Source: Candidatus Poribacteria bacterium (GTDB lineage Bacteria; Poribacteria; WGA-4E; WGA-3G). Taken from it: a stretch of 64,000 nt of DNA. Within the stretch, counting starts at the first letter, position 1; the number at the start of each line of letters is the position of its first letter. A program made the translations under genes and the position numbers. The DNA is taken from assembly GCA_026706025.1 (NCBI GenBank), contig JAPOZO010000049.1, forward strand, positions 1-64,000, in the 5' to 3' direction. The notes below the pieces were generated by a model. That model was given only the letters and a program-made list of their open reading frames with translations, did not search any database and was not told the DNA's origin. Positions 13,007 through 14,761 of the stretch are shown in pieces.

Positions 13007-13912
13007 CTATTCAAGCTTGCTCTTGAGCGAAAGGCTATAATCAAGAAGTGCATTGGCATACGGCATATTGTGAAGCCCATACCCGCTATCGCCTTTAACC
13101 ATGTCGTAGTTCAGTTTTGCGTCCAGATAGTCTTGTGAAGTTTTGTCAGGCGCAGCGTCAAGCATCGTTTTGACGGCTTGCATCTTCGCCTCTATCTCAG
13201 CACGATATTGTGGTAACTTCGTCTCCATGCTATTATCCGCACTATCGTGACACCCCGCAGTACTGCATACCGATAGGTCAGCGATAAATGTATGTCCCCC
13301 GTGTTTCGCAACCGCCTTAGGGTCCTCTTTCGCCATGTGGCATTGCACACACCGCTTTTTCATCACGCGGACGTGCGGCGACGGCATCCGTTTCACACCG
13401 GCGCCCTCGCGTCCGAGGAACATTTCCGATTGGGATTGGTGAACGATGCCAGCACCCGCACAACCGCAGTCCATTTTATGACAGCTGACACATAACTTTT
13501 TCGCGGGTTGCACCAGTAAATGTTCCGATTTGCTCGCGTGGGAATGGCACGTAGAACAAGAAACAGCATTCACCGCTGTCTCTATATTATAGGTATGCCC
13601 CGAATAGACCCGCTCACTAAAGACTTCGTAACCAGCGGAGTGACAGCTCAGGCAGGATGTCTGCACCTCATACGGACCTTCAATCAGGTTGACAAGAGCG
13701 TGTGAGTGTCCCGCGTGTTGCCACTCTTGATAGGCGGGTTCGGTCCCGTGACACTTGTTGCAACCTTCAGCAAACGGCGTTTTTGTGTTAGATGCATCAT
13801 TCTCTATAGGTGCCGCGTAGAGTGTCCCGATCTTATCGTAGCCACAGAGTGCGAAAAGGGCAATCGTTCCCATCAGTAGGGCTAATCCTAAAAATAAGAA
13901 AACCTGTTTCAT
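13007..13912 (-). CDS. Multihaem c-type cytochrome
   Basis: This 301-aa protein has an N-terminal membrane anchor or signal segment (about residues 3-22). Five CXXCH haem-binding motifs follow: CNKCH, CLSCH, CSTCH, CVSCH and CVQCH. A sixth possible site, CSTAGCH, has four residues between the cysteines. Histidine-rich spacing such as EWQHAGHSHA could supply distal ligands. It is probably a periplasmic, membrane-anchored electron carrier of the NapC/doubled-CXXCH kind. The C-terminal 80 residues lack cysteine and look helical. Maturation would need the ccm genes found 5-16 kb away. Partner oxidoreductase unknown. Confidence 0.85.
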   Translation of the reverse strand: MKQVFLFLGLALLMGTIALFALCGYDKIGTLYAAPIENDASNTKTPFAEGCNKCHGTEPAYQEWQHAGHSHALVNLIEGPYEVQTSCLSCHSAGYEVFSERVYSGHTYNIETAVNAVSCSTCHSHASKSEHLLVQPAKKLCVSCHKMDCGCAGAGIVHQSQSEMFLGREGAGVKRMPSPHVRVMKKRCVQCHMAKEDPKAVAKHGGHTFIADLSVCSTAGCHDSADNSMETKLPQYRAEIEAKMQAVKTMLDAAPDKTSQDYLDAKLNYDMVKGDSGYGLHNMPYANALLDYSLSLKSKLE

Positions 13913-14095
13913 GAATTTTTATTGTCCTTGTACAATTTTTTAAGTCGCTTGACTATGTTGCTTACTAAATAGTCTCTGATAGTTAAATATCATACCTGAT
14001 TTGGCGAAATATGTCAAAACTTTTTAAATGCACCCAACCTGCTCATTGTGCCTTTAACGCTTCGCCAAACGCATGGAAAAGTGGGAGGGATTTTT

Positions 14096-14761
14096 ATGTC
14101 TCAAGCCGAAAATGGAATAGATCTTTTCAATGGTAAAAACATGGACGGTTGGCTTGCACGAGGTGGCGCGCCACAACATGAATGGGATGCTGCTGGCAGC
14201 GTCGCTCTTAACCCTGACGACGCAAAACTGCTCACAACGACAACCGGTGAAGGAATCTTTTTTTTTTTTAATGATACGGCGACCACCGAGATCTACACCG
14301 AAGCAGAATACGGTGATTGTGAACTCCACGTGGAGTTTATGGTACCACAAGGCTCTAACTCCGGCGTTTATCTCATGGGTAGATACGAAATCCAAATACT
14401 GGACAGTTGGGGTGAGACAGAACTGCGCTACGGCTCCTGTGGCGGCGTATATTGTCGCTGGATCGATAATCAGCCAGTAGACGGCGTACCGCCACGTGTG
14501 AACGCAAGCAAACCCCCAGGCGAGTGGCAAACGTACGACATCACCTTCCGCGCACCAAAATTTGATGCCGATGGCAATAAGACTGCAAATGCTACCTTTG
14601 TCAAAATCGTCTGGAATGGACAGATCGCCCATGAAGATGTTGAGGTCGTAGGCTGCACGCGCGGGGCAATGATAGAACATGAAGCCACCGCCGGTCCATT
14701 GATGTTACAAGGCGACCACGGGCCTGTTGCCTTCCGCAATGTTGTGCTCAAACCGGCTTAA
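14096..14761 (+). CDS. DUF1080 (3-keto-disaccharide hydrolase-like) protein, interrupted by adapter-like sequence
   Basis: The protein matches the DUF1080 family, a concanavalin-like beta-sandwich linked to 3-keto-glycoside hydrolysis. It shows IDLFNGKNMDGW at the start, YGDCELHVEFMVP, GSNSGVYLMGRYEIQILDSWG and GEWQTYDITFRAP in the body, and GPLMLQGDHGPVAFRNV at the end. The start at 14096 follows GGGAGG with 5-nt spacing. Around residues 55-68 it reads GIFFFFNDTATTEIYT, which is the in-frame translation of a T run plus the Illumina P5 oligo (14258-14298). The true residues there are therefore uncertain, although the frame continues correctly on both sides. A Gfo/Idh/MocA oxidoreductase gene follows, a common pairing for this family. 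Confidence 0.85.
   Translation: MSQAENGIDLFNGKNMDGWLARGGAPQHEWDAAGSVALNPDDAKLLTTTTGEGIFFFFNDTATTEIYTEAEYGDCELHVEFMVPQGSNSGVYLMGRYEIQILDSWGETELRYGSCGGVYCRWIDNQPVDGVPPRVNASKPPGEWQTYDITFRAPKFDADGNKTANATFVKIVWNGQIAHEDVEVVGCTRGAMIEHEATAGPLMLQGDHGPVAFRNVVLKPA
14258..14298 (+). other. T12 plus exact Illumina P5 adapter sequence
   Basis: Twelve T (14258-14269) are followed by 29 nt (14270-14298, beginning AATGATACGG and ending GATCTACAC) identical to the Illumina P5 oligo. A T spacer before P5 is the layout of flow-cell grafted primers. The in-frame translation contains NDTATTEIYT, a known signature of adapter contamination in protein databases. This is an assembly artefact, not biology. Confidence 0.95.

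Follow-up and report, generated by a model that had tools for sequence, protein, structure and literature searches.

An apparent length-conserving overwrite of a poribacterial DUF1080 gene by a surface-bound Illumina oligo, and its recurrence in public genomes

In this study we describe a block of foreign sequence within a DUF1080 gene of Candidatus Poribacteria which, judging from sequence comparison, is almost certainly a sequencing artefact, and in which an Illumina oligo takes the place of native gene sequence of the same length, with nothing added. The block lies in a window of 64,000 nucleotides, the whole stretch of DNA that was analysed (contig JAPOZO010000049.1 of assembly GCA_026706025.1), and overwriting of the same kind recurs in other genomes and in phages, with both the P5 and the P7 oligo.

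Identity and boundaries of the block

The Illumina P5 oligo is present as an exact match (29/29) at positions 14,270-14,298 on the + strand, with a run of twelve T (14,258-14,269) directly 5' of it. The first two T (14,258-14,259) form bases 1 and 2 of a conserved Phe codon and are TT in 21/21 orthologs, and divergence from all orthologs starts with the remaining ten (14,260-14,269, + strand), which correspond to the T10 spacer of a surface-bound oligo; the foreign oligo is T10 plus P5, 39 nt at 14,260-14,298. Directly 3' of P5 the native gene continues without adapter, and the site is internal, 14 kb into the window. P5 occurs only once across the 6,273,306-base genome, in which we found neither P7 (at ≤3 mismatches) nor the TruSeq 13-mer. 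The block was absent from the 72 other genomes of the order and from the complete E. coli genomes that were searched, and 100 shuffles of the sequence gave no match to P5 at ≤3 mismatches. Separately, the bases that follow P5 (14,299-14,313) show a likeness to the start of P7 (AAGCAGAA, ACGG). We rejected this likeness, of CGAAGCAGAATACGG to the P7 sequence CAAGCAGAAGACGG, as coincidence, the orthologs having nearly the same bases, which form Glu-Ala-Glu-Tyr-Gly codons.

The gene that carries the artefact (14,087-14,761, + strand, with the ATG at 14,096 as its likely start) matches nearly the whole of the PF06439 profile (DUF1080, 3-keto-disaccharide hydrolase; E = 3.5e-36, 125.5 bits against a gathering score of 26.8), and outside the block it appears to be an ordinary member of that family, a putative hydrolase by profile. 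Its frame remains open through the block (...TTTTGEGIF FFFNDTATTE IYTEAEYGD...). The original prediction of twelve T and an exact P5 in a DUF1080 gene whose frame survives is thus confirmed, and its view of the block as an Illumina artefact is supported by the absence from the other genomes of the order that were searched and by the divergence from orthologs. The neighbouring genes look ordinary (PhyH, a multihaem cytochrome, GFO/IDH/MocA and DUF6785); the one adjoining the DUF1080 gene on the opposite strand (13,007-13,912) is multihaem c-type cytochrome-like, with several CXXCH motifs.

Replacement of native sequence in the DUF1080 gene

The comparison set consisted of 21 same-genus orthologs with 81-89% amino acid identity, four of which (G005, G010, G018 and G021) come from genomes in 1-3 contigs. 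The window gene aligned with all of them without a gap. At residues 59-68 (numbered from 14,087), which lie within an otherwise conserved motif, 9/10 residues match none of the 21 orthologs; the motif reads F-[YH]-N-G-[APT]-T-G-R-T-x-D-I-Y-T in the orthologs and F-F-F-F-N-D-T-A-T-T-E-I-Y-T in the window. At the nucleotide level, positions 14,260-14,290 show only 8-11/31 identity to each ortholog, which is the level expected by chance, between flanks that are 80-92% identical. Because the alignment is gapless, the flanks are conserved and the intervening identity is at chance level, these 31 nt (+ strand), encoding [YH]NGxTGRTxD in the native gene, were overwritten rather than interrupted. A plain 39-nt insertion would likewise have kept the frame, and we dropped it wherever homologs align without a gap. 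In one genome of the genus the DUF1080 ortholog (G019:C82:35398-35562) has, approximately, just residues 1-27 and 191-222 left, which gives the appearance of an internal deletion.

The sequence ATCTACAC at 14,291-14,298 (+ strand), identical to the 3' end of P5 and the inferred priming site, is exact in 14/21 orthologs, matches at 7/8 positions in six and at 6/8 in one, and the base preceding it is C or T in 21/21 orthologs, never G. The native match to P5 most likely comprised 8 nt (ATCTACAC) and not 9. The idea that the 3' end of P5 had misprimed on genuine sequence is therefore upheld, with this shorter match, as is the warning that the local protein sequence should not be trusted, residues 59-68 being false. 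The proposed alignment to DUF1080 relatives places the divergence squarely within 14,260-14,290. What did not stand is the notion of 41 extra nucleotides: the change is a 39-nt replacement, length for length, and two of the twelve T are native.

Recurrence in other genomes and phages

A collection of genomes yielded 81 stretches of T10-P5 with a base other than T directly 3' of it. Many of these are read-through at contig ends with adapter behind, and 35 are internal without adapter behind. When the coding frame was scored independently to the left and to the right of the block, 16 of the 17 clearly scored same-strand cases kept their coding phase (P = 2.7e-7 against an expectation of 1/3), as did 21/35 once less clear and opposite-strand cases were included. 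Since a 39-nt insertion would also keep the phase, homolog alignments were needed. Compared with homologs of solved structure, an XerD-type recombinase (L034; XerC/D-type), ClpC (L095), RNase J (L047), MreB (L070) and a viral RmlA (L121) all align across the block without a gap. The alignment of LeuB (L100), which has small gaps in a variable loop, can be read either way, and a RelA-type gene with T10-P5 (L078, 2840-2890) is an exception in which about 90 residues are missing and length is not conserved. For two further loci (L115 and L168) a search for usable relatives found none, and phage hits in which adapters were present (L157-L159) were left out. Two of the phase-conserved cases (L035 and L057) lie in contigs whose names give an assembly k-mer of 87, which suggests that reads spanned the block.

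The strongest support for the generality of overwriting comes from two comparisons at the nucleotide level. Viral contig L122 aligns with L337 without a gap, with 496/520 positions identical outside the block and 18/39 inside it, and L337 carries native GATCTACAC, a 9-nt match, exactly at the position of the P5 end. Because the block in L122 brings TAA TGA into frame, the conservation of length cannot be explained by a frame that stayed open. The second comparison involves the portal gene of Klebsiella phages Marfa (MN044033.1, L419 1596-1629) and EI (MN106245.1, L417 396-429), which both carry T10-P7 at the same site. The same 821 nt of phage HMGUkp2 align with them ungapped and hold native CGGCATACGAGAT, which matches the 3' end of P7 over 13 nt. 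As in the DUF1080 gene, a surface oligo has here overwritten sequence without a change in length, at a site where its 3' end matches the native bases; the differences are that the oligo is P7 rather than P5, that the match is 13 nt, that the same site is affected in two records and that a stop now interrupts the portal frame of each phage, the gene in EI being annotated as two portal fragments.

Why the frame so often remains open can be understood from the codon phase of the priming hexamer. In long ORFs CTACAC falls as xxC-TAC-ACx in 42/60 instances and GTGTAG as xGT-GTA-Gxx in 24/24. Among phase-conserved artefacts, those in sense orientation read FFFNDTATTEIYT in 12/12 and those in antisense orientation VDLGGRRIIKKK in 7/9, both of which are open frames. 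An open frame is thus frequent because length is conserved and the hexamer favours one codon phase, and from codon usage at priming sites one would expect NDTATTEIYT to turn up in protein records, with no need for selection. The peptide strings NDTATTEIYT, LSLHDALPI and FLMIRRPPR were not found in the literature searched, of which coverage was partial.

Origin of the overwrite and its implications

Library PCR primers have P5 without a T run. The T10 that precedes P5 in the block therefore points to an oligo bound to the chip surface as the source, rather than to a primer from library PCR. When viral contigs were searched with P5 alone and no demand for T, the run was 8 or 9 T twice and otherwise at least 10, unless the contig started there. 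An example of a 10-T spacer on surface-bound primers is given in PMC11123353. At internal T10-P5 sites of the genome collection, runs of 11-12 T occur somewhat more often than would be expected from random native T upstream, for which phasing and oligo synthesis length are possibilities.

From the identity of the oligo, its native 3' match, the equal-length replacement and the recurrence with both oligos, all of which were observed, we infer a mixed-cluster step. With its 3' 8 nt equal to native gene sequence, P5 could prime inside the insert, and during cluster amplification or paired-end strand resynthesis the surface oligo would do so, yielding truncated strands beside full-length ones in a single cluster. 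A read toward the truncated end would then report native sequence followed by P5 and spacer from the dominant truncated strands, until these end at the chip surface (T10) and the full-length strands restore native sequence in register. Such reads would cover both flanks, and a k-mer assembler would see an equal-length bubble, of which the wrong branch was kept here. This model would account for the precise length of the block, its edge at T10 and the way in which an assembler could cross it, and we regard the full account as likely. The length loss in RelA (L078), the ambiguity of LeuB (L100) and the excess of 11-12 T runs speak against it. Given the conserved length, one would predict that reads do span the site, with poor quality over the block, and not that spanning coverage falls to zero.

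The main rival accepts the mispriming but holds that no read spanned the block, and that the draft was overwritten base by base with P5-T10 read tails at a consensus, mapping or gap-closing stage. It likewise accounts for the conserved length, the T10 and the match at the 3' end; however, several phase-conserved cases lie in contigs named after k-mer assemblers, for which a consensus step is not expected by default, and misprimed tails are more usually clipped or placed with a gap than written over base by base, and we consider it rather unlikely. Ordinary adapter contamination, with a library PCR primer or read-through into adapter incorporated into the contig as an insertion or a chimera, is common in public assemblies (PMC11536531) and explains many of the 81 T10-P5 hits. 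At the DUF1080 site it is highly improbable, given that neither TruSeq nor Nextera adapter lies behind P5, that PCR primers have no T10 spacer, that the site is not at a contig end, that the gapless ortholog alignment contradicts an insertion and that neither P7 nor the TruSeq 13-mer occurs elsewhere in the genome. The open frame and otherwise intact appearance of the gene might be taken to favour genuine genomic sequence, yet an exact commercial 29-mer with T10, absent from the rest of the order as searched, giving residues seen in no ortholog of a conserved motif and overwriting unrelated genes and phages in the same manner, makes this reading vanishingly improbable.

Moeller et al. 2024 (PMC11536531) described TruSeq adapter in public microbial assemblies, concentrated at contig ends. 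The DUF1080 case resembles such contamination in that Illumina oligo sequence was carried into deposited genomes and MAGs, but differs in being a surface oligo at an internal site, with no adapter behind and an equal-length overwrite. No paper describing surface-oligo mispriming was found in the literature searched, which was covered in part, and such papers may exist.

Nothing biological follows from the altered residues of the NDTATTEIYT block, and masking is warranted for 14,260-14,290, that is, residues 59-68 of the DUF1080 protein. More broadly, we lean towards the view that mispriming by surface oligos in Illumina clusters, with P5 as well as P7, generally introduces internal false sequence of conserved length into public genomes, often leaving the frame open through hexamer phase, and that such blocks can slip through adapter screens directed at TruSeq or contig ends as well as through frameshift checks. 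Since length does not change, the errors can be taken for genuine protein variants. The same overwrite affects conserved genes (those for ClpC, the XerC/D-type recombinase, RNase J, MreB and RmlA) and has broken the portal gene in two deposited Klebsiella phages; a simple screen for T10 followed by P5 or P7 would find such errors.
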